A stretch of 64,000 bases of DNA from Rhizobium brockwellii. Lineage in GTDB: Bacteria > Pseudomonadota > Alphaproteobacteria > Rhizobiales > Rhizobiaceae. The translations under genes were made by a program, and so were the position numbers. The DNA is taken from assembly GCF_000769405.2 (NCBI RefSeq), contig NZ_CP053440.1, positions 744,001 through 808,000 on the forward strand, written 5' to 3'. The notes below the pieces were generated by a model, which was given only the letters and a program-made list of their open reading frames with translations, did no database searches and was not told the origin of the DNA. Shown here in pieces: positions 34,337-45,610 of this stretch. Each line of letters begins with the position of its first letter. The stretch's first letter is position 1.

Positions 34337-34528
34337 CTAGTAACATAATGTCCGCATCATTCCCTCAAAATTTGGCTTACTGCGACATCCTTGTCTTTCT
34401 ACGGATTCTTTATCAGGAGAAGTACTATGGGGTGCAACAGATCTTTCGCTAGATCCGTTATAGGTCGAGCACGCCGAGAATATAATAGAAATTATCGATA
34501 TTATGGCGATTTTCTGCACAGCGTTCAT
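34337..34528 (-). CDS. Small putative lipoprotein
   Basis: This 63-residue ORF has a very good Shine-Dalgarno (GGAGGA, 5 nt before ATG). Its lipoprotein-type N-terminus is MNAVQKIAIISIISIIFSAC, with a hydrophobic core and a lipobox-like F-S-A-C. The mature part would be about 44 polar residues with three further cysteines and no recognised domain. It stands alone in an AT-richer, mosaic intergenic region. The ORF frame is open 18 codons further upstream, but the Shine-Dalgarno fixes the start. Confidence 0.55.
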   Translation of the reverse strand: MNAVQKIAIISIISIIFSACSTYNGSSERSVAPHSTSPDKESVERQGCRSKPNFEGMMRTLCY

Positions 34529-34758
34529 CTGCTTCCTCCATATCATTGCGAGGCCCCGTCCCAGCGTTTGTATCTTCGACATTGCCTCCTCATGGCGATC
34601 AAAGGCTGCTTTTTACCGCGATCGATAATCAAAATATGTCGTAGTGACTACGCTGGATTGAAGCTTTGGATCAAAAGCTTTTTGTTTTCTGGTGTACCGG
34701 CGTTTTGATCTGCTTTGACCAGCCGCCCGTAAACTTTGACTATTCAAAAGAGGGCCGC

Positions 34759-35385
34759 ATGCCGCGAATGATATCCATCGTTGGAAACGCATCTTTCGGT
34801 TGCCGTGAAGCCGCTATCATCGACGATTGCGATTTTGTTGTGCGCTTTAACGATTGCTGGTCTGTCGGGAAGGGTGGCTGCCGCACCGACGTGGTCGCGG
34901 CTACAATACCGGCCGGCCGGCAGCTCTCGATGGCTAGAGAGCGCTCGTGGCACGAAAAGTCAGCGGTAGCGTCGGCCTCGGAGATTTGGTGCGTGCGGGA
35001 CGCAATGAAGTTCATGGAACTCAAGACGAAACTTGATCCGGCGCTGGACGACTTTTGCGACGACTATACCGGAGAGCTTGCGATGTTCGCCGCTGAGACC
35101 GAAAAAGTGTTCAAGGTCATACCACGCAGCCACCACGACCGGATCGATATCGAGCTTCAGTCGATGTCGTCCGAGAGCTACGTCGTGCCGAGCTCCGGAT
35201 TGATGGCGATCGCTTATGTACTTGAAGAGGTGTTTGGCCCGTGGCGCGACTGTCGGACCAATCGTGGCTACCATGGAATGGTTGTTCCATCATATGCGAA
35301 GAACCCGCCTGTATGGTGGGGTGTCAAATCGTCCAGCATCCGCAAGATGCGCTTGGCGGCTTCATCAGGCTCGGAACGCTGGTGA
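34759..35385 (+). pseudogene. GT29-like / 'urease operon accessory'-type protein with aberrant C-terminus
   Basis: The ORF encodes 208 residues from ATG 34759 (AGAGGG upstream). Residues 1 to about 155 look like the sialyltransferase-fold proteins annotated in rhizobia as urease operon accessory protein: ISIVGNASFG opening, IDDCDFVVRFNDC, RTDVVA, SEIWCVRD, DDFCDDY, and YVVPSSGLMAIAYVLEEVFGP. The family then continues with GATV and a GHxGW segment. Here the GATV reading is in another frame, and the last 40 or so codons are simply antisense to the convergent SDR gene. The gene thus appears frameshifted and truncated by its overlap of about 118 nt with the SDR. No urease genes are nearby. Confidence 0.6.
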
Positions 35386-35975
35386 CCCGATGAAAATGGA
35401 TCGGAAAGCTGAGTTATGACGGTCCCGGGATGCACTGTAACGATCAAGGACAATGGGTTCGCCCGGGCCACTTCTATTGCGGCTGTGTGAACGATCTGGT
35501 TGAGCGCAGCCTTCGACGAGCGATATGAAATCCAGCCTCCCAGCGCATTGTCGCCGATCGATCCCACCCGCGCCGATAGGAGGGCGAAAATTACCCGCTT
35601 CTTTTTTGCGAGCAGCGGAACGAAGTGCTTCACGACGAGAGCGGGTCCAACGGCGTTGACGGCAAACTGGGCCATCATGGCATTTTGCGAAATCTGGCGT
35701 ATCGACTTCTCCGGTCCCATGCCGTCAATGGTCAAAGCACCTGTGGCACAGATGATGAGATCAAACTCATTCGACCTGAGCATGTCCGCCGCGCGCTGCA
35801 CGGAATTCTCGTCCGTAAGGTCGAACCCGTTCTCTTGACGAGAAAGGCGGGCAACCTTGGCGCAGTTGCTGTCCATTTCCAACTGCCTCGAAATCGCATT
35901 TCCGATTCCTCCGCTGGCTCCAGTGACCAAGGCAGAATACCCTGCATCTAATGATCGCATCAGTGTTTCGGTCAT
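35268..35975 (-). CDS. Short-chain dehydrogenase/reductase
   Basis: This 235-residue SDR shows the glycine-rich cofactor motif TGASGGIGNAIS near residue 18, a central NAVGPALV segment and the YRSSKAALN catalytic Tyr-x-x-x-Lys, with an active-site Ser in the preceding strand region. The C-terminus GFFAYDGTTIPW is typical of the CsgA-like SDR branch. GGAGA precedes the ATG. It starts 45 nt after folE and is in the same direction, so the two likely share the upstream ECF11-type promoter. SDRs of this branch occur in the Rhodobacter RpoE-ChrR regulon, which fits the setting. Substrate unknown. Confidence 0.9.
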   Translation of the reverse strand: MTETLMRSLDAGYSALVTGASGGIGNAISRQLEMDSNCAKVARLSRQENGFDLTDENSVQRAADMLRSNEFDLIICATGALTIDGMGPEKSIRQISQNAMMAQFAVNAVGPALVVKHFVPLLAKKKRVIFALLSARVGSIGDNALGGWISYRSSKAALNQIVHTAAIEVARANPLSLIVTVHPGTVITQLSDPFSSGHQRSEPDEAAKRILRMLDDLTPHHTGGFFAYDGTTIPW

Positions 35976-36020
35976 CCGGGGTTCTCCAGATTGCGATTCA
36001 TTGTCGTCAGGAGGCCGGTT

Positions 36021-36629
36021 TCAACCGCGGGCCAGCATTATGAAACGCGCCTGATCCGATACAGATGCTTCGAACTGTCCGGCGAACGCGGTTGTGAGCG
36101 TCTTGCCTCCCTGCTTCCGAATGCCGCGCATCGCCATGCACATGTGCTCCGCCTCGATCATCACGGCGACACCTTTCGGGCGTAAACTTTCTTCAAGAGC
36201 TCTCGCGATCTGAGCAGTCATGGTTTCCTGGGTCTGCAGCCTGCGGGCATAGAGATCGACAAGCCTTGCCATTTTTGAAAGACCGAGCACGCCCTGCTCG
36301 GGAATGTATGCGATATGAGCAATCCCATGGAACGGCACCATGTGGTGCTCGCAATGGGAATGAAACTCGATGCCTCTGACGAGCACCATCTCGTTGTAGC
36401 CACCGACTTCGGAAAAAGTCTTCGAAAGCACATCCTCAGGCTCCGTCGCGTATCCGGAGAAGAGTTCGCGATAGGCCTTTGCCACCCGCTTCGGAGTATC
36501 GAGCAGACCTTCGCGTGATGGATCGTCTCCGGCCCAGCGTATTAGCGTACGCACCGCTTCCTCAGCCTGGTGTTGAGTTGGACGTTCCGAGGCAGCCACC
36601 GGGCATGCATTGGTGACAATGGCATCCAT
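36021..36629 (-). CDS. folE: GTP cyclohydrolase I, type 1
   Basis: Converts GTP to 7,8-dihydroneopterin triphosphate, first step to folate and pterins. The 202-residue protein carries the zinc ligands C93 and H96 ([11 protein letters not shown]) and C164 (HMCMAMRG), with [10 protein letters not shown] and the QTQE substrate-binding region. ATG at 36629 has CGGAGAG upstream; the longer frame to 36821 is rejected because it runs through the promoter. Directly upstream lies a strong RpoE/ECF11-like promoter, so this copy appears stress-controlled rather than housekeeping. It is followed by the SDR gene. A second, housekeeping folE elsewhere in the genome is expected but cannot be seen here. Confidence 0.95.
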
Positions 36630-36658
36630 AAATCTCTCCGGAATTAATAAGCGACTTA

Positions 36659-36687
36659 GCTTACGTCCCTTGCCGGGTTCCGGATCA
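36659..36687 (-). promoter_or_regulatory. RpoE/ECF11-type promoter for folE-SDR
   Basis: Read on the minus strand, TGATCC (36687-36682) is followed after exactly 18 nt by TAAGC (36663-36659), 30 nt before the folE start codon. This matches the promoter form known for Rhodobacter sphaeroides RpoE (TGATCC, 18 nt, TAAG). The cognate ECF sigma gene is 6 kb away. Confidence 0.75.
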
Positions 36688-36864
36688 AAACTGCCGATCT
36701 GCAAAGTAGCGCAACTGTCAGATTGGTTCTGGATACGCTGGTGGCCTGGATTTGGTGAAGAGGTCGTGATTGCGACAGTCGATTTAGTGCGGACCCTGTT
36801 AACTTGTTCCGTCACCTGCAACCAGTGCTCAAGCCACCTGTCGGATATCTTTTGGTATGACGTT

Positions 36865-37332
36865 TCAGCCGTTCAGCCAAAGCAAAGACGCGTTCAGGAC
36901 GGAAGCAAATCCCACCCATAGCGCATAGGGAAAGAAGCAAAAACGCGCGACCTTATCTCTTGCTATCGCAATAAAATAAAGGATGAGAAGCAGTAGGCAT
37001 AGGATGACCGCCAGGCCTAAAGACATTGCATGCGCCCCAAAGAATAGTGGCGTCCACAGCCAGTTCAGTATCATCTGCCCAATCCAGATCTTGATGCCCC
37101 GGCCTTTGACGCCCTCGATAAGCCACGTGCGCCAGCCCGCAATTGCAATAAGGATATAGAGTGTGGTCCATGCCGGACCGAAAATCCAATTTGGCGGATT
37201 GAAAAACGGCTTGTTCAACGAGGCATACCAGGCCCCTGGTTGAATGGTTAGACCGATCACCAGCCCGGCGCCGATCACGACAAGGAGAAAGAAGCCCAGC
37301 ATCATTGCGCTGGTTGTGCGGTAGGAGGGCAT
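36865..37332 (-). CDS. tspO: TspO/MBR-family membrane protein
   Basis: This 155-residue inner-membrane protein has five hydrophobic helices and the family's aromatic-rich segments ([28 protein letters not shown] in the first loop and helix 2; NWLWTPLFF in helix 3). TspO binds porphyrins and in Rhodobacter is an oxygen-dependent modulator of tetrapyrrole gene expression; bacterial forms can photodegrade protoporphyrin IX. Its position downstream of the lipocalin gene (64 nt) and within a ChrR-type stress region suggests a role in handling photosensitising tetrapyrroles. AGGAGA stands before the ATG. Confidence 0.93.
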
Positions 37333-37396
37333 TGTATCTAATTCTCCTGGAAGTCCATCAGCGCGTTAAGGGATATTGCCAGTCTGTGTTTTCTCT

Positions 37397-37927
37397 TTAC
37401 TGCTGCGGAAACTCAAGCTTGCGAACGTCGTAGCCGAGTTCGCTCGCCTTGTTGATCATGCGATGCAGCTTGTTTTTCGAGGGAACGTTCCTGGAGTAAA
37501 TCCACAGGTTCGTCATCGACGGGTTGGCGCTGATAAACCAGGATTTGTCAGGAGATTTATACAAAACCCAATAGTTGAAAGTGATTAGCCAGGGGTATCG
37601 AACCTGCATCTTCGCATTTGTTGTCCCGAAATCCTGGATGGTCCCGGTGCCGCGGACGGTCTTCAGTCGACCTTGGGGCGTGTCGACTCTACAACCGTCT
37701 TCGATGAGAATCTCATCTGGCGATTTGCCTTGTCGGTAGCTCGAATAGCCCGCAACGCAGCCGTCGGTCAGGAACATCGGTGTCCGCCCGACCTCCAGCC
37801 ATGTCCCGCGATAGTGATCCGGTCCCACTTTAATCACGTTGGGTGTGGCGTACGCAGCGGCGGCTTCGCTAAGGATGAAGAGCACCGCCAGCAGAAGCCG
37901 GCCCGCACGATTGAGACAATGTTTCAT
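37397..37927 (-). CDS. Lipocalin-family secreted protein (Blc-like)
   Basis: This 176-residue protein has a signal peptide (basic MKHCLNRAGR, hydrophobic core, AYA-TP cleavage region) and a lipocalin fold. It shows GTWLEVGRTP (the family GxW motif), a disulfide-type cysteine pair, and the later FGTTNAKMQVRYPWL and SWFISA strands. Bacterial lipocalins bind lipids or fatty acids in the periplasm or outer membrane, and lipocalin genes are members of several alphaproteobacterial singlet-oxygen regulons. It overlaps the upstream membrane protein gene by 4 nt and belongs to a four- or five-gene operon with the CFA-type methyltransferase. Confidence 0.87.
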   Translation of the reverse strand: MKHCLNRAGRLLLAVLFILSEAAAAYATPNVIKVGPDHYRGTWLEVGRTPMFLTDGCVAGYSSYRQGKSPDEILIEDGCRVDTPQGRLKTVRGTGTIQDFGTTNAKMQVRYPWLITFNYWVLYKSPDKSWFISANPSMTNLWIYSRNVPSKNKLHRMINKASELGYDVRKLEFPQQ

Positions 37928-38502
37928 GAATACCTCCCCGGTGTCGGGTGCTCAGGCACCGCTGAATAAAGCCTCGACTGGCGTGAAGTTCCCGCATATC
38001 GCAGCGTTACGAAGGCCATCAGACTTGCCACGGCGAACGCGTTCAAGTTGAGGAGTATCGCAAGGTCTGTTTGCGTCCAAACGTGCAGCGGCGCGCCGAT
38101 GAAACCCCGTGAAAACACGAAGGCGGCAAAAACGAGGACAGCCATTCCACGTTGCCACCAGTGTTCGTCTTCTCGAAAGGAGACTGCAACGAGCATTAAG
38201 CAGGCCGCCAGAAACAACTCAGTACCGGAGTGTTGGCCAAAGAGCTTCGTTTCGAACAGAGTGTCAAACGTACCGACCAGCGGAAGCGCGATCCTTGCCG
38301 ACAGCGGCGAACGCCGGGCTATCAAAGGGATCGCCAGAAAGAGCGGCGCTGCGGCTAATGTGCCAAGCGAAGCTGCCACGCCATCACCCACCAAATACCA
38401 AATGTAGAGCGGGTAAAACGGCTTGTTCAGGAGGATGACCCAAGCGACCGTCACGGACGCCTTTGTCAATGGATCAAGATTTGCAGGTGCAACTGCCATC
38501 AT
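37924..38502 (-). CDS. Multi-pass membrane protein of unknown function
   Basis: This 192-residue hydrophobic protein has five or six predicted membrane helices and conserved-looking NKPFYPLYIWYLVGDG and FDTLFETKLFGQHSGTELF segments. Its gene overlaps both neighbours by 4 nt (methyltransferase before, lipocalin after), so it is translationally coupled to lipid-modification genes. I do not assign a family. Its place suggests a membrane partner of the fatty-acid-modifying enzymes. Confidence 0.82.
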   Translation of the reverse strand: MMAVAPANLDPLTKASVTVAWVILLNKPFYPLYIWYLVGDGVAASLGTLAAAPLFLAIPLIARRSPLSARIALPLVGTFDTLFETKLFGQHSGTELFLAACLMLVAVSFREDEHWWQRGMAVLVFAAFVFSRGFIGAPLHVWTQTDLAILLNLNAFAVASLMAFVTLRYAGTSRQSRLYSAVPEHPTPGRYS

Positions 38503-39527
38503 GGTGTTCGTCCCAGAAGGTAGTGGCCGACACCCCAGATATCGCCCCTGTCATGGCCGAACATGCCAGCCGTCGAAAGAAAGAACAGTCTCCAACGGCG
38601 CTGCCATAGAGACGCGTCCCGGCCGTAGATCTGCCTTAAGATTGGCTGGATGCGATCGATGCGCCGATCGAAATTGGCAAGCCAGTCAAGAGAAGTGCGG
38701 CGATAATGCGTGCCCGACCAGCGCCATTCCATTTCCACTTGGAATAGATCGCCGAAACGGTGCGGCAGGTCATGGGCCGGCATGATGCCGCCGGTGAAGA
38801 AGTGCTGGGCGATCCAATCGGCAGGGTCGGCGCGGTCGAAACGATAGGATCGGTCTTTGTGCGTGAAGATGTGCAGGAACAGCTTGCCGTCAGGCTGGAT
38901 CCAGCGGTGCACCCGCTCTAAAAGCGCCCGCCAGTTCGACATGTGCTCGAACATCTCCACGGAGACGACGCGGTCATAACGCTGGTCGGTGGCAAAGTGG
39001 TTCATGTCGGCGGTGATGACGCTCAGGTTGATCAATCCGAGTGTTTCGGCGCGGGCAAGGATGTATGCGCGCTGAGAGGCGGAGTTTGATACGGAGGTGA
39101 CGCGCGAATTCGGGAAATGCGTGGCGAGGTAGAGCGACAGCGAGCCCCAGCCGCAGCCGAGTTCAAGAATACTCATGCCATCTTCGATGGCGGCGTGGTT
39201 CACGGTCTCGGCAAGAGCAAAGGTTTCGGCCTCGTCAAGCGTCGTGGTATCTGTCGGGTATAGACAGCATGAGTATTTTCTCTGCGCCCCGAGCGCCAGC
39301 GCGAAAAAGGCGGCCGGCACTTCATAATGTTGGCGGTTGGCCTGGTCAGTATGCGTGGCGACCGGAAAATGCCCCATCGTGTCGACAAAGATCCTCTCGG
39401 CCTCAGCTGACGTCGCCGCCAGTCTGCGCTTGGTGCGGTTGCAGAGGAGCTCGATGCCTGCGAGCGTCATGCTGTCGTTGAGCGGGGCTCGCTCGGCAGT
39501 CTTGATAGCGAAAGCCATCACATTCAT
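38499..39527 (-). CDS. Cyclopropane-fatty-acyl-phospholipid synthase-family methyltransferase
   Basis: This 342-residue SAM-dependent methyltransferase has the glycine-rich SAM motif ILELGCGWGSLSLYLA near residue 125, an upstream YSCCLYP segment typical of CFA synthases, and a VEMFEHM motif. The family methylates double bonds of membrane fatty acids. In Rhodobacter the RpoE regulon includes CFA-type enzymes, among them the UfaM methylase of furan-fatty-acid synthesis, a singlet-oxygen scavenger pathway. A similar job is inferred from the ChrR-type neighbourhood, not proven. It overlaps both flanking genes by 4 nt. Confidence 0.9.
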   Translation of the reverse strand: MNVMAFAIKTAERAPLNDSMTLAGIELLCNRTKRRLAATSAEAERIFVDTMGHFPVATHTDQANRQHYEVPAAFFALALGAQRKYSCCLYPTDTTTLDEAETFALAETVNHAAIEDGMSILELGCGWGSLSLYLATHFPNSRVTSVSNSASQRAYILARAETLGLINLSVITADMNHFATDQRYDRVVSVEMFEHMSNWRALLERVHRWIQPDGKLFLHIFTHKDRSYRFDRADPADWIAQHFFTGGIMPAHDLPHRFGDLFQVEMEWRWSGTHYRRTSLDWLANFDRRIDRIQPILRQIYGRDASLWQRRWRLFFLSTAGMFGHDRGDIWGVGHYLLGRTP

Positions 39528-40324
39528 CGCTCATCTCCTTGTGGGCGCTGTCTTCGAGGTGCTGGGAAAAAGGCGTTGACGCGGCTCTGTAGGGCGCGGA
39601 ACTTTTCGCCGCGCGAGCGCAGCATGTGCTCTTCGAGCGGGGGGATGCCGGAGACATGAACGAGCAGCCAATACATCAGCAGCGGTGCGAAGATCGACAG
39701 CCAGCTCGAGATTGGCGCTGCAATCGCGAAAAGTGGCCAGCAACACCAGAAGAGCCATTCGAAGAAATAGTTGGGGTGGCGCGAATAGCGCCATAGGCCA
39801 GCCTCGCAGACCTCTGTCTTCGCCTGCGGTGTTTTCCGGAAGCGCGCCAGCTGCACGTCGGCGATCGCCTCGCCGACCAGCGCAACAGCAGCGATCAAGA
39901 CAGCGACCCCATCATGCAAACTTGGGAACACGATATCATTGTTCGCTGCGAGATAGACGGCCAGCATGAGCACGAATGCCGCTAACGCCTGGATCTGGAG
40001 AAAGAGGAATAGCCGCCATTCGGCGCTATCACCCCACTCCGCTATAAGTCTTGCATAGCGGGGATCTTCGCTACCGCCTCTGGTACGTGACCCGATATGG
40101 CCGCCGAGCCTCAGTGCCCAGGCGGCGATGATAATCATGAGGGCGATGCGACGATCAACGTCCCCATTCGAAAAAAGCGCCGCGGTCATACCGCCGACGC
40201 CTACCGCGGCGGTCCAGATCGTATCGATCCAGCCACTCAAGCCCGTAACACGCTGAATCGCCCAGGCGATGGCCATCGCAAGCGACAACAAGATCGCGAT
40301 GAGAACTAAAAGAGACAAATCCAT
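39524..40324 (-). CDS. DUF1295 (steroid 5-alpha-reductase-like) membrane protein
   Basis: This 266-residue integral membrane protein has several hydrophobic helices. The characteristic C-terminal block is CEAGLWRYSRHPNYFFEW, then GIPPLEEHM, as in DUF1295/steroid reductase-like proteins. Such proteins neighbour CFA-type methyltransferases and FAD oxidoreductases in singlet-oxygen regulons. It heads the minus-strand operon with the methyltransferase, membrane protein and lipocalin. ATG at 40324 is preferred over 40375, because the longer version would run into the putative promoter; GGA stands 7 nt upstream. Confidence 0.88.
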   Translation of the reverse strand: MDLSLLVLIAILLSLAMAIAWAIQRVTGLSGWIDTIWTAAVGVGGMTAALFSNGDVDRRIALMIIIAAWALRLGGHIGSRTRGGSEDPRYARLIAEWGDSAEWRLFLFLQIQALAAFVLMLAVYLAANNDIVFPSLHDGVAVLIAAVALVGEAIADVQLARFRKTPQAKTEVCEAGLWRYSRHPNYFFEWLFWCCWPLFAIAAPISSWLSIFAPLLMYWLLVHVSGIPPLEEHMLRSRGEKFRALQSRVNAFFPAPRRQRPQGDER

Positions 40325-40352
40325 CGTTTTTCCATCGGGTGGATTGTTAACG

Positions 40353-40381
40353 AGCTTCTCTACGGCCTTGCACACAGATCA
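40353..40381 (-). promoter_or_regulatory. Weak RpoE/ECF11-like promoter for the DUF1295-CFA operon
   Basis: On the minus strand TGATCT (40381-40376) is followed after 18 nt by AAGCT (or GAAGC after 17 nt). This is a one-mismatch -35 and a poor -10 against TGATCC/TAAG. Location, 30 nt before the start codon of the operon's first gene, is right. Low confidence. Confidence 0.3.
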
Positions 40382-40511
40382 GTTTTTCCGCGCGCCTGGA
40401 AATTCCTCAAAAAATTGCGCAGCCAGCAAAACTAACCTGAGCTCCTCTTCGTAGAGGCGGTCTGAAAACAACTGCATTGAGAGCCGGCAACGGCTCACAC
40501 CGAGAGGTTAT

Positions 40512-41885
40512 ATGGAATTTGATAATCGGAACGCTGGCGGACGGCGCCTGAATATAGCCGTCGTTGGAACCGGCATTTCAGGCCTTTCGGCAGCTTGGCT
40601 TTTGTCTCACCGCCACGATGTTACTGTTTACGAGGCTGCGAACCGGATTGGTGGTCACAGCAATACGGTGGAGTTCGAGAGCGCGAGCGGGCCAGTTGCG
40701 GTTGATACTGGCTTTATCGTCTATAACGAGGTCACCTACCCGAATCTGGCAGCTTTGTTCCGCCTGCTCGACGTGCCGACGGCTGCGTCCGACATGTCAT
40801 TTGCCGTCTCGCTGAACGATGGTGCCTTCGAATATTCCGGCGGCACCCGCCTCGGTTTATTTGCTCAAAGATCAAATCTCGTCAACGCGCGCTTCTGGTC
40901 GATGATACGGGATTTACTTCGCTTCTATCGCACCGCACCGCGCGATCTTGCTATGATGGGCAATATCTCGCTTCACGACTACCTGTGCCGCAACGGCTAT
41001 GGTCGACCTTTCCGCGACGACCACCTCTATCCGATGGCCGCGGCAATCTGGTCGACGGCGGCCATGGAGGTGGGCAACTACGCTGCTGCCAGCTTCGTGA
41101 AATTCTGTCGCAATCACGGCCTTCTCGAACTCTGGAACCGGCCAATCTGGCGAACGGTCAAGGGTGGCAGCCGTGAATATGTGTCGCGCATTGCCAGCTG
41201 TTTCGCCGACCGGATAAGGCTTTCGACCCCGGTGACGGCCATCCGCCGGTTGCCGGGGCGAGTGGAAGTCCGGGATGCGGGGGGTGCAAACCAAGTCTTC
41301 GACGACGTCGTGATTGCCACGCACGCGGATCAGGCGCTCCGCCTGCTGACTGATGCAACGGACGACGAACGGCGCATCCTTGGTGCGTTTCAATATTCGC
41401 GCAACGAGGCCGTGCTCCACGGCGATGCCAGCCTCATGCCGAGGCGGCGCGGCGCGTGGTCAAGTTGGAATTATATCGCCGACACCGAGGATGCACCCGC
41501 ACAGCCGTCGATCACCTATTGGATGAACAGGCTGCAGCCACTTGGCGCAGCGCCTCCAATATTTGTGACCCTCAATCCACGTCGCGAGCCGCGCGCTGAC
41601 AGCGTTATTCTGCGTGAAGTCTACGACCACCCTGTCTTCGACCTTGGAACAGACAGAGCTCAGCACGAAGTCTGGTCGCTGCAAGGGGTAGGCAATACCT
41701 GGTTCTGCGGCGCGCATTTCGGGTCAGAGTTTCATGAAGACGGCATTCAAGCCGGGCTCGCGGTCGCTGAAGATCTCGGCGGCCTGCGCCGGCCCTGGCA
41801 GGTGGCGCAGGAAAGTGCCCGGATTATTCGCAAGCCGCTGATTAGGCCCATCGATGTTCCGATCGACGGGCCAGTGCTCGCATGA
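40512..41885 (+). CDS. FAD-dependent amine-oxidase-like oxidoreductase
   Basis: This 457-residue protein has an N-terminal FAD dinucleotide-binding motif (IAVVGTGISGLSAAWLL, then VYEAANRIGGHSNTV) and the flavin-containing amine oxidase/phytoene-desaturase-like architecture. The C-terminus (TWFCGAHFGSEFHEDGIQAGLAVAEDL, in pieces) closes the FAD site. It is divergent from the DUF1295-CFA operon, with 187 nt between. Homologues of this type travel with CFA-like methyltransferases and are thought to desaturate or oxidise the modified acyl chain. Conversion of a methylated fatty acid is inferred. The DUF1365 partner often found next to it is absent here. Confidence 0.9.
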   Translation: MEFDNRNAGGRRLNIAVVGTGISGLSAAWLLSHRHDVTVYEAANRIGGHSNTVEFESASGPVAVDTGFIVYNEVTYPNLAALFRLLDVPTAASDMSFAVSLNDGAFEYSGGTRLGLFAQRSNLVNARFWSMIRDLLRFYRTAPRDLAMMGNISLHDYLCRNGYGRPFRDDHLYPMAAAIWSTAAMEVGNYAAASFVKFCRNHGLLELWNRPIWRTVKGGSREYVSRIASCFADRIRLSTPVTAIRRLPGRVEVRDAGGANQVFDDVVIATHADQALRLLTDATDDERRILGAFQYSRNEAVLHGDASLMPRRRGAWSSWNYIADTEDAPAQPSITYWMNRLQPLGAAPPIFVTLNPRREPRADSVILREVYDHPVFDLGTDRAQHEVWSLQGVGNTWFCGAHFGSEFHEDGIQAGLAVAEDLGGLRRPWQVAQESARIIRKPLIRPIDVPIDGPVLA

Positions 41886-42026
41886 CACCGGAATTTCGAC
41901 CAAGTCCCAGTCATCCGGCTTTTACCCACCTAAGTCACGCACGGCACAGGCTAACGCGCATCGTTAAGAGTCATCCATGTTCGGGCGCATCGAACATGCT
42001 TGAATCGCACCTTAAGGAGAAATGGT

Positions 42027-42398
42027 ATGAACCCGATGATGCCGATGGTTGCAGTTTTAGCTATTGGAGCTGCAAGCATGGCGGGGGCTGCTGACATCAA
42101 CGGTCAGTGGGCGCGAGGAGACGGAAATGCAAAGGTGAAGATCGCACCGTGCGGTTCGGATCTCTGCGCGGTCAACACCTGGATCAAGCCGGGGACGCCG
42201 AAGGAGAAGGAAGGCGACAAGCTTGTGATGTCGATAAGACCAGACGCCGAGGGTAGCTATTCGGGCACTGCTTTCGATCCGCAACGTGACATGAGCTACA
42301 AGCTGACGGTCACCGTCGACGGCAACAAGATGACCACGAAAGGCTGTGTGGTCGCCGGTTTGCTTTGCAAAGCTATCGACTGGACGCGCATTGACTGA
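42027..42398 (+). CDS. DUF2147-family small secreted protein
   Basis: This 123-residue protein has a signal peptide (MNPMMPMVAVLAIGAASMAGA, in two parts, cleavage before AD). Its DUF2147-type body has GQWARGDGNAKVKI, PCGSDLC, and the closing KGCVVAGLLCKAIDWTR. ATG at 42027 has AAGGAG 7 nt upstream. Function of the family is unknown; proteins are periplasmic. It is placed between the FAD oxidoreductase and the sigma/ChrR pair on the same strand. Confidence 0.85.
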   Translation: MNPMMPMVAVLAIGAASMAGAADINGQWARGDGNAKVKIAPCGSDLCAVNTWIKPGTPKEKEGDKLVMSIRPDAEGSYSGTAFDPQRDMSYKLTVTVDGNKMTTKGCVVAGLLCKAIDWTRID

Positions 42399-42413
42399 GG
42401 TGCAGAATTTGTA

Positions 42414-42845
42414 ATGAGAAAAAATGTGAAAACCTATATTGTCGCCTATCTTGCAACGCTGATCATTTTCGTCGCAATTGATTTCGTCTGGCTTGGCAGC
42501 ATGGCAGATCGCCTCTATCGCCCGACTTTGGGCGAAATGCTGGCCCCTGAATTCAGGCTCGCTCCGGCCGTCGCCTTTTACCTCATCTACGCGGCCGGGC
42601 TGACGTTTCTGGCTGTCAGGACAGGCTTGATGTCAGGCTCCGTGGTCACGGCGGCTCTATACGGCGCCGCCGTTGGCTTCACAGCGTACGCAACCTACGA
42701 CTTAACAAACCAGTCAACGCTTAAAAATTGGTCGACCACTTTAACGATGGCCGATTTGCTTTGGGGTAGTGCCTTATCGGCTGCTTCAGCCGGCGCGGCT
42801 TTTTGGATTACGCAGCGCGTTGTGGGAACACTGGATAAGATGTGA
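42414..42845 (+). CDS. DUF2177-family membrane protein
   Basis: This 143-residue protein has four hydrophobic helices and the family pattern IDFVWLGSMADRLYRP near the first helix end, then GAAVGFTAYATYDLTN and a final WGSALSAASAGAAFW. Function unknown; family members are common next to ECF sigma/anti-sigma stress loci. It follows the DUF2147 gene by 15 nt and precedes the sigma factor. Confidence 0.88.
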   Translation: MRKNVKTYIVAYLATLIIFVAIDFVWLGSMADRLYRPTLGEMLAPEFRLAPAVAFYLIYAAGLTFLAVRTGLMSGSVVTAALYGAAVGFTAYATYDLTNQSTLKNWSTTLTMADLLWGSALSAASAGAAFWITQRVVGTLDKM

Positions 42846-42923
42846 TGAGGTTCCGTAGGGGATATGCTGACTTCGCATTGGCAGATGATCCGTCGCCTGT
42901 TCAAATTTTTCATGTCGCTTTTT

Positions 42924-42952
42924 TGATCCGCTCAGGTTCTCACGCGTAATCC
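42924..42952 (+). promoter_or_regulatory. RpoE/ECF11-type promoter of the sigma-chrR operon
   Basis: TGATCC (42924-42929), a 17-nt spacer and TAATCC (42947-42952) match the Rhodobacter RpoE promoter form, implying autoregulation. The expected transcript start lies near 42958. That makes an ATG at 42958 almost leaderless and favours a downstream start for the sigma gene. Confidence 0.6.
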
Positions 42953-43026
42953 ACCTCATGAACATGCGATTACCGTTCCGATCCGGATTACGTCGAGGGA
43001 CCCGTGCTAAGGCAGTCGCCTGGCAC

Positions 43027-43632
43027 ATGCCGGGTTTGGAACGAAAGGTCGGCGCCTTGGAGGAAGAGAAGCAAAAATTGGATGCCGCGCGGATCAATTC
43101 ATTGATGTCGGCCGTAGGAAAATCGCGCGACATCGACTCATTCGAAATTCTGTACAGGCACTTTTACCCACGCGTCCGTTCTTACATGGTCCGTCTGACG
43201 AGAGGCAATCGCATACTCGCTGAGGAACTGACTCAGGAAACCATGATGCGGGTCTGGTATAAGGCGGCGCTGTTCGATTCATCAAAAGCGCAGGCATCGA
43301 CCTGGATATTTGCGATTGCGAGAAATCAAATGATCGATGCTGCCCGCAAAGGTGCCCATCCCGAATTCGACGTTAACGACCCCGCATTTGTGCCAGATGA
43401 GATGGAAGCGGCGGACGTCAAGATTCAGCGGCAACAGAACGCGCAGGAGCTGCATAATGCGATGCTCACATTGAAACAGAAGTACGTGGAGGTCCTTCGG
43501 ATGTCGTTCTTCGACGGTCTGACCCACACAATGATAGCAGAAAGACTAAACCTCCCAATTGGAACGGTAAAATCGAGGATACGGCTTGCATGCGAGAAGT
43601 TGCGGATGGCGATTCAGGTCGATGCCAAATGA
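43027..43632 (+). CDS. rpoE: ECF11-type RNA polymerase sigma factor (RpoE/ChrR-type)
   Basis: This ECF sigma factor has region 2 (FEILYRHFYPRVRSYM, EELTQETMMRVW) and region 4 with HTH (GLTHTMIAERLNLPIGTVKSRIRLA). No extra C-terminal domain is present. It is followed, with 4-nt overlap, by a ChrR-type zinc anti-sigma gene, which identifies it as the Rhodobacter RpoE kind that responds to singlet oxygen. Start is uncertain: ATG 42958 (224 aa), ATG 43027 (201 aa) or ATG 43105 are all in frame. The upstream promoter position argues against 42958, and homology begins near residue 50 of the longest form. Confidence 0.9.
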   Translation: MPGLERKVGALEEEKQKLDAARINSLMSAVGKSRDIDSFEILYRHFYPRVRSYMVRLTRGNRILAEELTQETMMRVWYKAALFDSSKAQASTWIFAIARNQMIDAARKGAHPEFDVNDPAFVPDEMEAADVKIQRQQNAQELHNAMLTLKQKYVEVLRMSFFDGLTHTMIAERLNLPIGTVKSRIRLACEKLRMAIQVDAK

Positions 43633-44282
43633 TTGAACATCATCTGGACGACGATATGCTCCTCCACTACTCCGCCGGGACTCTGGCGGAGGGTTGGAGC
43701 GTCGCAGTTGCGACCCACCTCGCACTTTGCCCGTCATGCCGCGCGAATCTTGCGATGCTCGAAAACGTGGGGGGCTACTTTCTTGAATCCCAAGACGCGG
43801 GCAAAGACGATGTGACAGCAAGTTGGCAAAGCCTCCGAGCGCGGATTGAAGCTGGTGAGATCGAGAAAGTCGTGCCTATCAAGAAGCACACGACCGCCAA
43901 CAACACTTACCCCGAGCCCCTGAGGTCTTATATCGAGCAAGCTGGCGGGTTGAAGTGGCGCAGACTGGGCCGCGGCGCAGCGCAGATGATTATACCGACC
44001 GACGACAATACGACGACCGTTCGATTGCTGAAGATTCCTGCCGGTCAGCCCGTTCCGGAACATTCCCACGAGGGCTCTGAACTGACGCTTGTTCTCGATG
44101 GCAGCTTCAGCGATGAAGTCTCGACGTTCGCGCGAGGCGACGTCGAAATGGCAGATGGCGATCTCATGCATCAGCCACGAGCCAGCGCCGGAAAAGACTG
44201 CATATGTCTTGCCGTCACTGACGCGCCTCTGCGCTTTAAAAGCAGGTTTGTGCGCTGGCTGCAACCTTTGTTGGGCATCTGA
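43629..44282 (+). CDS. chrR: ChrR-type zinc anti-sigma factor with cupin domain
   Basis: This 217-residue protein has an N-terminal zinc-binding anti-sigma domain, with H5, H30, C34 and C37 (THLALCPSC). A C-terminal cupin domain has H145, H147, E151 (PEHSHEGSE) and H181. This is the ligand set of Rhodobacter sphaeroides ChrR shifted by one to four positions. There the N-domain holds RpoE and the cupin domain is required for release under singlet oxygen. It begins at the ATGA overlap with the sigma gene. The upstream extension of the frame is rejected. Strong basis for calling the whole neighbourhood a photo-oxidative stress regulon. Confidence 0.95.
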   Translation: MIEHHLDDDMLLHYSAGTLAEGWSVAVATHLALCPSCRANLAMLENVGGYFLESQDAGKDDVTASWQSLRARIEAGEIEKVVPIKKHTTANNTYPEPLRSYIEQAGGLKWRRLGRGAAQMIIPTDDNTTTVRLLKIPAGQPVPEHSHEGSELTLVLDGSFSDEVSTFARGDVEMADGDLMHQPRASAGKDCICLAVTDAPLRFKSRFVRWLQPLLGI

Positions 44283-44431
44283 TCGTCAATAGAAATCACG
44301 ACATCGAGAAGCACACAGAAAAGCGCCTTTTGATCGTAAATATCTGAAATAACGATCTTGTTATAAAGTACTAAACCAATAGCCAACTCGTGCGTAAAAA
44401 TCGACACCGCGCCAAGAAGGCCGGCATCGAG

Positions 44432-44946
44432 ATGAGACGTATTATGAACAAGTCTATGATCATTTCAGCACTCGCCTTCGCTATGGCCGCATTCATTCCC
44501 GTGACGGCACTCGCGGCAAACCCGAAGGTCGGCGCAATGTACGAGGACAAGAACATTATCGAGAACGCCGCCAACTCCAAGGATCACACGACACTCGTCG
44601 CCGCTGTGAAGGCTGCGGGTTTGGTTTCAACGCTCCAAGGCAAAGGACCGTTCACAGTCTTCGCGCCCACCAACGAAGCGTTCGAAGCGCTTCCGAGGGC
44701 ACCGTGGAAACGCTTCTGATGCCGGAGAATAAGGCTCAGCTTACAAAGCTGCTGACCTGCCACGTGGTTGCTGCCGATGCGATGGCGAGCACGGTCGGCG
44801 GCTGTGTGCTCAGGGCCAAGGAAAGCATGGGCAAGATTACCCTTGCTGACGAGATAGGGGGAACAGCAACTGTGACGATCGCAGATGTCAAGCAGTCGAA
44901 TGGCGTCATCCACGTCATCGACAAGGTGCTTCTGCCGAAGATGTAG
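44432..44946 (+). pseudogene. Fasciclin-domain secreted protein, frameshifted
   Basis: Two overlapping frames together make one fasciclin (FAS1) domain protein of about 170 residues. The first reads [17 protein letters not shown], signal cleavage ALA-AN, then [17 protein letters not shown] and a premature stop at 44717-44719. The second frame resumes with [28 protein letters not shown] and VIHVIDKVLLPKM. The break is at about 44696-44699, where one base is missing (LP-?-GTVE). FAS1 proteins are secreted adhesion-type proteins common in rhizobia. It is either a pseudogene or a single-base sequencing error; the frame is otherwise clean. Confidence 0.8.
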
Positions 44947-45168: not shown

Positions 45169-45610
45169 GATCTGCTCCTTCCCTGACTTAACAGGGGCCG
45201 GCGGATGCGGCGCCGACCCCCTGCGGGCCTAACTCGGGTCCGCATCAGCTCCTGGGGTGCGGAGCCGGTCCGATCGCGGGTAGGACTTCCGCTCGGAACG
45301 GATGTTTTACGTCAAACAGCTCCGGCAGATCAGAATCGTTTCAACTCTGTTGACGATACCAGCAATTTCATTTCCGCGGCCGTCCGCGGGATAGCATTCG
45401 CTGCAACGTTCGCCGGTGCATGTTTAGAGGACGCGCAGCGCCAAGTTGCCCGCCTTGTCGAGCGCAGTCATCGTGCAGAACTCACGAAGCAGATGGAGTT
45501 GAGGCGCTCACTGAAGCGGGGCAGAACCTTGGGACTTGGGATGTAGACGGTTGGGTCTGAGCACAAGCTATTGGCGGCAATGAGTCTAGGATGCTGTCGG
45601 ATCGCTCTAA
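45169..45610. other. Intergenic stretch without a supported gene
   Basis: About 440 nt between the small minus-strand ORF and the monooxygenase scrap. A 113-codon plus-strand frame (45205-45546) exists, but it lacks a Shine-Dalgarno and has coding-unlike composition. I see no RNA gene or repeat. Confidence 0.4.

Follow-up and report, generated by a model that had tools for sequence, protein, structure and literature searches.

A 9-kb island on a plasmid of Rhizobium brockwellii is probably a hybrid of two extracytoplasmic function (ECF) sigma factor regulons. Its sigma factor, chrR and folE genes are preceded by the ECF11-type promoter TGATCC-N15/16-CGTA, and its lipid genes by a second motif, RAAACY-N16-CGTA, which is also found in front of a chromosomal fasciclin gene beside a SigK-like sigma factor. 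The island lies in the window, a stretch of 64,000 nucleotides (C2:744001–808000) within a 7.1-Mb, 7-contig genome. Identity of the 9-kb region is 99.2% to pRL9b4, a plasmid of R. leguminosarum bv. trifolii, and 97.5% to pRL12 of R. johnstonii 3841, which makes C2 (971,705 bp) a pRL12-type plasmid. Handles beginning with C, G and L denote contigs, genomes and loci.

A sequence-only reading of the window had placed all island genes under one stress sigma factor. All of the genes it named were found by Pfam at or near the positions it gave, namely a short-chain dehydrogenase/reductase (SDR), FolE (250 bits), TspO, a lipocalin, a cyclopropane fatty acid (CFA) synthase-type methyltransferase (CMAS), a DUF1295 protein, a flavin adenine dinucleotide (FAD) amine-oxidase-like protein, an ECF sigma factor and ChrR. 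A membrane protein, DUF2147 and DUF2177 proteins, a 63-residue lipoprotein-like open reading frame (ORF), the gene at 34759–35385 (+) and a frameshifted fasciclin gene were found in addition. The features are as follows, in window coordinates.

34337–34528, minus strand: lipoprotein-like ORF of 63 residues with a lipobox-like ..IIFSAC; candidate ECF11 target
34647–34673, minus strand: ECF11 promoter TGATCC-N15-CGTA of the lipoprotein-like ORF, also in L002, L092 and 3841
34706–34733, plus strand: ECF11-like promoter TGATCT-N16-CGTA (one mismatch), upstream of 34759–35385
34759–35385, plus strand: 208-residue protein, RefSeq name 'Urease operon accessory protein', antisense overlap with the SDR 3' end
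35268–35975, minus strand: SDR, second gene behind folE, 45 bp downstream of it
36021–36629, minus strand: folE, second GTP cyclohydrolase I copy (the other at C1:2068704)
36660–36687, minus strand: exact ECF11 promoter TGATCC-N16-CGTA of folE–SDR
36865–37332, minus strand: TspO/MBR protein (Pfam)
37397–37927, minus strand: lipocalin (Pfam, Lipocalin_2)
37924–38502, minus strand: membrane protein, itself below any Pfam model; many homologues with PF20967 (MASE7)
38499–39527, minus strand: short CFA-type methyltransferase (CMAS), 29% to chromosomal UfaM
39524–40324, minus strand: DUF1295 membrane protein, start as in RefSeq relatives (the ORF extends to 40375)
40361–40386, minus strand: second-code promoter-like site AAAACT-N16-CGTA of the DUF1295 operon
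40428–40453, plus strand: second-code promoter-like site AAAACT-N16-CGTA of UfaD
40512–41885, plus strand: UfaD-like FAD oxidoreductase, 47% to chromosomal UfaD
42027–42398, plus strand: DUF2147 protein, start as in a RefSeq relative
42426–42845, plus strand: DUF2177 membrane protein, start as in a RefSeq relative
42924–42950, plus strand: exact ECF11 promoter TGATCC-N15-CGTA of sigma–chrR
43027–43632, plus strand: ECF11 sigma factor, by sigma family and closest solved structure
43629–44282, plus strand: ChrR anti-sigma factor with zinc anti-sigma domain (ASD) and cupin, all 8 ligands
44390–44946, plus strand: fasciclin gene split over two frames, the two pieces scanned separately; probable pseudogene

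The ECF11 sigma factor, ChrR and their promoters

Island ChrR scores 207.7 bits against TIGR02451, and its closest solved structure is R. sphaeroides ChrR (2z2s_B, 172 bits). The sigma factor has regions 2 and 4 and is closest to R. sphaeroides sigmaE (2q1z_A, 117 bits). All eight zinc ligands described for ChrR (PMC6852236) have counterparts in the window protein, namely H5, H30, C34 and C37 in the ASD and H145, H147, E151 and H181 in the cupin domain, as the sequence-only reading had held. On sequence grounds, the pair is a genuine ECF11 system. The sigma gene is present as that reading had proposed, but the ORF start at 42958 is too near the promoter; annotated starts in relatives correspond to about 43027 or 43057. 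R. sphaeroides ChrR frees its sigma factor on singlet oxygen or organic peroxide (PMC6852236), and by analogy island ChrR would respond to the same signals.

The promoters predicted in front of the sigma gene and folE are exact (TGATCC-N15-CGTA at 42924–42950 and TGATCC-N16-CGTA at 36660–36687). They agree with the ChIP-based consensus TGATCCN16CGTA of P. syringae PSPTO_1043 (PMC5507510) and with mapped Shewanella transcription starts (PMC4336711). TGATCCN{15,16}CGTA occurs 17 times in the 7.1-Mb genome versus 3 times for the reversed control. Three of the 17 sites fall in 8.3 kb of the island (binomial P about 1e-6, for a span picked after the sites were seen) and two more at one chromosomal locus. 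The other 12, judged by position only, include several inside long ORFs and a few upstream of ORFs, for example in L118, L119 and L131. When one mismatch and spacers of 15–17 are allowed, 7 sites lie in a 12-kb stretch, 4 of which precede listed genes; two of the promoters, at 34647–34673 (−) and 34706–34733 (+), had not been noticed before. The other three, at 37815, 38450 and 45306, do not precede listed genes. The last, TGATCT-N15-CGTA at 45306–45332 (−), also occurs in L001, L002 and L092; about 137 bp downstream of it, the annotations of 3841 and pRL9b4 place a short hypothetical gene, a possible further ECF11 target.

Conservation was scored in 41 island-type (class-1) loci, the window included, by counting sites that deviate from the motif at no more than one base and lie in the 250 bp before ORFs scoring at least 60 bits with at least 150 upstream bases, near-identical loci being counted apart. 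Of 43 full-length class-1 matches, 39 were fetched together with one degraded copy; the window is among the other four, and three loci (G141:C39, G064 and G110) were left out. TGATCC promoters precede the sigma gene in 40/40 copies (23 exact; 27 copies, plus 13 scored with the paralogue query) and folE in 13/13 (6 exact). They precede fasciclin in 6/9 and TspO in 12/15, the three TspO copies without one being, by subtraction, those of the window, 3841 and R. anhuiense. Homologues of 34759–35385 have the motif in 10 of 14 ORF matches (reversed control, 0), and the four misses are ORF pieces in 3841 (3) and R. anhuiense (1). No TGATCC promoter of its own was found for SDR in 16 class-1 loci, and the spacing suggests that SDR is co-transcribed with folE.

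An ECF11–ChrR unit with an autoregulatory promoter is supported by these data, and folE is a likely direct target of the island sigma factor. The sigma factor would be held by zinc-bearing ChrR until singlet oxygen or organic peroxide appears; once freed, it would transcribe sigma–chrR, a stress-dedicated folE with SDR, the small lipoprotein gene and 34759–35385. An additional GTP cyclohydrolase might serve to refill oxidised pterins or folates, in line with the induction of folE2 by singlet oxygen reported for two species of Rhodobacter (PMC7074977). The lipoprotein-like ORF and the 208-residue protein match no Pfam family. Homologues of the former were found in pRL9b4, R. anhuiense and 3841, with weak matches in L083 and L115; it is unmatched in L093, whose fetched stretch stops within the ORF (L001 and L093 are both 3841). 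An intact fasciclin copy of the same genome lies at C1:73355, and fasciclin matches stand behind chrR in several relatives.

The second promoter code and the SigK-like system

The lipid genes differ from folE and the sigma gene in the same scan. TGATCC sites were found upstream of DUF1295 in 0/25 class-1 loci, CFA in 0/23, lipocalin in 0/12, window-type TspO in 0/3 (by subtraction) and UfaD in 2/23, with 0 to 1 sites for each gene by the control motifs. The claim of one stress sigma factor for the whole island is thus supported for autoregulation and for folE as a likely target, but not for the lipid genes, which carry another motif. At two mismatches the search was uninformative for DUF1295 (7/25 versus 12/25 for the control) and suggestive for UfaD (15/23 versus 3/23), and the UfaD signal led to the second motif. 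An alignment of the DUF1295/UfaD divergent region revealed a conserved CGTA at a fixed distance from AAAC(C/T). The pattern [ACG]AAAC[CT]-N15/16-CGTA was found in the 250 bp ahead of DUF1295 in 19/25 class-1 loci and ahead of UfaD in 16/23 (controls, 0 to 2), and among the other scored island genes it precedes one fasciclin copy. It occurs 46 times in 734 kb, and twice more in the window besides the paired sites at 40361–40386 and 40428–40453. Since the motif was derived from the same loci, these counts are descriptive, and further named loci provide the independent check. Once the pair had been found, an earlier view of the lipid genes as promoterless was dropped.

In 16 hand-listed related loci with both sites, the paired −35 copies agree in their last base, and those of R. 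lusitanum do likewise. The pair is also present in Neorhizobium EC2-8 and in Neorhizobium NCHU2750, where the plus-strand gene is CFA; near the latter there is no annotated ChrR, and two other sigma/anti-sigma pairs are found, one RskA-type and one NrsF-type. Sinorhizobium B11 has CAAACC and CGAACC. Rhizobium sp. C104 shows the same mixed state as the window, with TGATCC at sigma and folE and AAAACC and CAAACC at the lipid pair. The genes for DUF1295, CFA, the membrane protein, lipocalin and TspO, and divergently UfaD, would start at the paired promoter; to judge from the spacing, TspO is probably the last gene of this operon. Modification of methyl-branched acyl chains is the probable role of DUF1295 and the short CFA enzyme.

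A SigK-like sigma factor is encoded in the same genome at C1:71849, followed by an RskA_C anti-sigma factor and then fasciclin, which has GAAACT-N16-CGTA 58 bp upstream (C1:71.8–73.8 kb; L005:1438–3417). The same order of sigma, anti-sigma and fasciclin recurs in Agrobacterium larrymoorei and Shinella, with GAAACT-N16-CGTA at 72 and 71 bp, respectively. The RAAACY code would most likely be read by this chromosomal SigK-like sigma factor, which has an RskA-type membrane anti-sigma factor and adjoins a fasciclin gene with the same motif. The closest solved relative of the sigma factor is SigK (4nqw, 96 bits) versus 74 bits for sigmaE. The UfaD-UfaO-UfaM-DUF2147-DUF2177 genes of R. lusitanum 629 have sigK-RskA behind them in place of sigma-ChrR, and Neorhizobium EC2-8 shows the same order with sigK-RskA, its genes for UfaM, DUF2147 and the membrane protein each being split in two. 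GAAACT stands at both lipid promoters of these two loci. In the window, the GAAACT-type site is present as the variant AAAACT, and the sigma slot beside the lipid module holds ECF11–ChrR, not SigK–RskA. From this exchange of the sigma slot and the occurrence of both codes across the named loci, the module seems to be wired to either switch, with the window as the cross-wired state. Adjacency to an ECF sigma factor is thus insufficient for regulon assignment, as one module seems to carry the promoters of another sigma factor; the locus offers a natural case of regulator exchange in which two promoter codes are legible base by base.

Several observations weigh against this assignment. The name 'SigK-like' refers to the nearest relative: against the NCBIfam SigK model the sigma factor scores 135.5 bits where the cut-off is 226, and for the RskA-type anti-sigma factor no solved structure matched at E≤1. 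In the loci examined, the sigK genes themselves showed no RAAACY site upstream. The loci of clade A (13 leaves), one of the two main clades of the sigma and ChrR tree, read GAAACC rather than GAAACT, and where fasciclin lies next to an ECF11 system its site has an intermediate form, TGAACC. The module stands with ECF11–ChrR in Mesorhizobium terrae and Phyllobacterium sp. 628, where TGATCC or TGATCT precedes UfaD and DUF2177 and the two codes overlap at Phyllobacterium UfaD. As the −10 CGTA is common to both codes, the ECF11 sigma factor might tolerate a variant −35.

These observations bear on a rather unlikely alternative, namely a single regulon in which the ECF11 sigma factor reads both TGATCC and the variant RAAACY, the lipid genes being weak or late members. 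The spacing is shared as well as the −10, lipid genes adjoin sigma–chrR in many class-1 loci, TGATCC stands at UfaD in L085 and L094, TGATCC or TGATCT sites are found in the Mesorhizobium and Phyllobacterium loci, and the two-mismatch excess at UfaD points the same way. Its best argument is that a similar cluster in Stenotrophomonas depends strongly on sigma-Ec, an ECF11-type sigma factor, although this sigma factor served tolerance to superoxide and not to singlet oxygen (PMC11832516). However, folE and sigma keep TGATCC where the lipid pair keeps RAAACY in the same loci, Rhizobium sp. C104 included; RAAACY accompanies the module in L187, L189 and L191, where no ChrR gene was seen; and the same motif stands with fasciclin beside sigK-rskA. 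Assignment of the RAAACY promoters to EcfG/RpoE2 (GGAAC-N16-CGTT type) or to another ECF sigma factor is improbable. At least one of the S. meliloti RpoE2 targets listed in PMC6180224 does have a GAAAC-type −35, but the −10 here is CGTA rather than CGTT, none of the S. meliloti ECF motifs in the literature passages covered matches, and the sigma-slot exchange and fasciclin promoters suit a SigK-like sigma factor better.

Island history and a probable split circuit on the chromosome

Clade A loci have contiguous ufaD-ufaO-ufaM, with UfaD, UfaO and UfaM in the fetched stretch in 11/13, and chromosomal ChrR is absent in 12/13 of the clade A genomes. The loci of G012 and G005, with which the second clade begins, likewise contain all three genes. 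The rest of that clade, to which the window belongs (support 0.81), showed no UfaO within the stretches fetched, a number of them truncated by contig ends. A UfaM relic of 168 residues persists in R. johnstonii 3841 (L001:14798–15301, annotated hypothetical) and is gone in the window, and about 80 bp of UfaD are left in R. anhuiense. Among the class-1 island genomes, 38/39 have DUF1365 somewhere, with two full copies in G012 alone; the plain reading is that the furan genes were lost, stepwise in the lineage of the window, through redundancy. Formation of the furan ring requires UfaO, which is the DUF1365 protein (PMC7380195). Since UfaO is absent and UfaM gone, the furan fatty acids that the sequence-only reading had thought possible are unlikely to be made from this island alone.

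The absence of UfaO, the relic and loss of UfaM, the near loss of UfaD in R. anhuiense and the frameshifted fasciclin gene could also mean that the island is largely decaying and has background expression as its only function. UfaD shows the highest scored ratio of nonsynonymous to synonymous substitution (dN/dS), 0.52 on 13 changes against pRL9b4. Wholesale decay is nevertheless very unlikely, as pairwise dN/dS to 3841 is 0.04–0.26 for 11 scorable genes (DUF2147 rows left out) and the sigma and folE promoters are intact; the remaining island genes look constrained.

A query search of the island locus found no photolyase or DUF1365, which the sequence-only reading had taken as a difference from the classic regulon. 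Both are, however, in one chromosomal locus of the same genome, where the single DUF1365 (C1:1561088) has chrR, SDR, UfaM, UfaO, UfaD and photolyase nearby and exact ECF11 sites stand before chrR and before photolyase. In 41 loci of this type (class 2), comprising the locus itself, 19 of 91 genus loci fetched besides it, a truncated copy from G004 and 20 of 61 family loci, a site with at most one mismatch precedes photolyase in 27/27 and chrR in 39/41. The TGATCC–CGTA spacer of the chrR promoters (L044:5918–5945 and relatives) is itself conserved in many genus loci as ATTGACTTT, perhaps an overlapping housekeeping −35.

No sigma gene adjoins chromosomal chrR in the fetched locus (L044:5984–6643, C1:1558 kb). 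The ASD lacks both cysteines in 20/20 intact genus copies (the genome's own included), 20/20 family copies and 120/120 listed homologues, and in two family copies the ASD histidine is gone as well. The cupin ligands are kept in 20/20 genus and 20/20 family copies; the listed homologues have H, H and E in 120/120 and the fourth H in 119/120. In L149 and L152 (G008, G055), the reading frame that contains the chromosomal ChrR is open over about 520 codons.

The candidate partner is a sigma factor at C1:4210640–4211197, which is 40% identical to the island sigma factor, has sigmaE as its closest solved structure (142 bits) and lies 2.65 Mb from chrR along the contig. By cut-offs set by eye at a score gap, and among non-independent relatives, 90 of 148 genus genomes have both this ChrR and this sigma factor, 57 have neither in full (three with remnants: G004, G052 and G078) and one, G116, has ChrR alone, its sigma gene being in two pieces. 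Among 297 sampled family genomes, 61 have ChrR, 60 the sigma factor and 59 both; the exceptions are the truncated ChrR of G004 and two genomes that are 81 and 83% complete. G199 (88% complete, no ChrR listed) falls just below the sigma cut-off with 172 bits. In 34 listed same-contig cases the two genes are 1.1 to 2.86 Mb apart, measured along the contig. This co-occurrence suggests that chromosomal ChrR pairs with the C1:4210640 sigma factor. Beside the latter, L004:2576–2881 looks by eye like a pterin carbinolamine dehydratase.

The island sigma factor may act in addition on the chromosomal chrR–SDR and photolyase–ufaDOM promoters, because they have the same promoter code. A wider scenario is possible but tentative: within Rhizobiaceae the lipid module would shuttle between two unrelated switches that take the same slot, cytoplasmic ECF11–ChrR and membrane-bound SigK–RskA, with R. 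leguminosarum plasmids cross-wired, and the chromosomal ECF11 circuit would be split, with the plasmid sigma factor driving the photolyase–furan regulon in trans. The side result may matter more than the island itself. In the parts of the literature found, no split or cysteine-free ChrR is described in rhizobia; anti-sigma domains without zinc have been described from other groups (PMC7406223), so loss of the ASD cysteines is not unique in principle. A widespread ChrR without ASD cysteines and unlinked from its likely sigma factor questions the need of ASD zinc for holding an ECF11 sigma factor or sensing singlet oxygen, and is ready material for testing that requirement.

Relation to known systems

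Mycobacterial SigK controls fasciclin proteins, and its locus also contains CFA, DUF1365 and FAD genes. The rhizobial chromosomal locus resembles it in having a SigK-like sigma factor and an RskA_C anti-sigma factor beside a fasciclin gene, whereas here the pair is chromosomal and the lipid module lies on a plasmid beside ECF11–ChrR. The UfaM–UfaD–UfaO pathway is represented by a UfaD-like gene in the island and by contiguous ufaD-ufaO-ufaM in clade A and on the chromosome; unlike that pathway, the window island lacks UfaO (PMC7380195) and UfaM.

The RpoE–ChrR system of R. sphaeroides is alike in its adjacent sigma factor and zinc ChrR with 8 ligands, its TGATCC...CGTA-type promoter and its GTP cyclohydrolase, fasciclin and SDR genes, the regulon table including FolE2, fasciclin and SDR (PMC7074977). 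It differs in that here photolyase and UfaO lie outside the island, FolE (PF01227) takes the place of FolE2, the lipid genes are under another motif and a second, probably split ECF11 pair is present in the same genome. In Stenotrophomonas maltophilia, smlt2375–2367 near rpoEc–chrR encode two CFA synthases, an FAD oxidoreductase, inner-membrane proteins and a lipocalin (PMC11832516), a mix similar in gene content. The gene combination emphasised by the sequence-only reading is indeed present in the window, but it is less unusual than claimed, given the R. sphaeroides regulon and this known ECF11-type target. The S. maltophilia cluster is raised more than 160-fold in a chrR mutant (PMC11832516), whereas the window cluster has no ECF11 motif.

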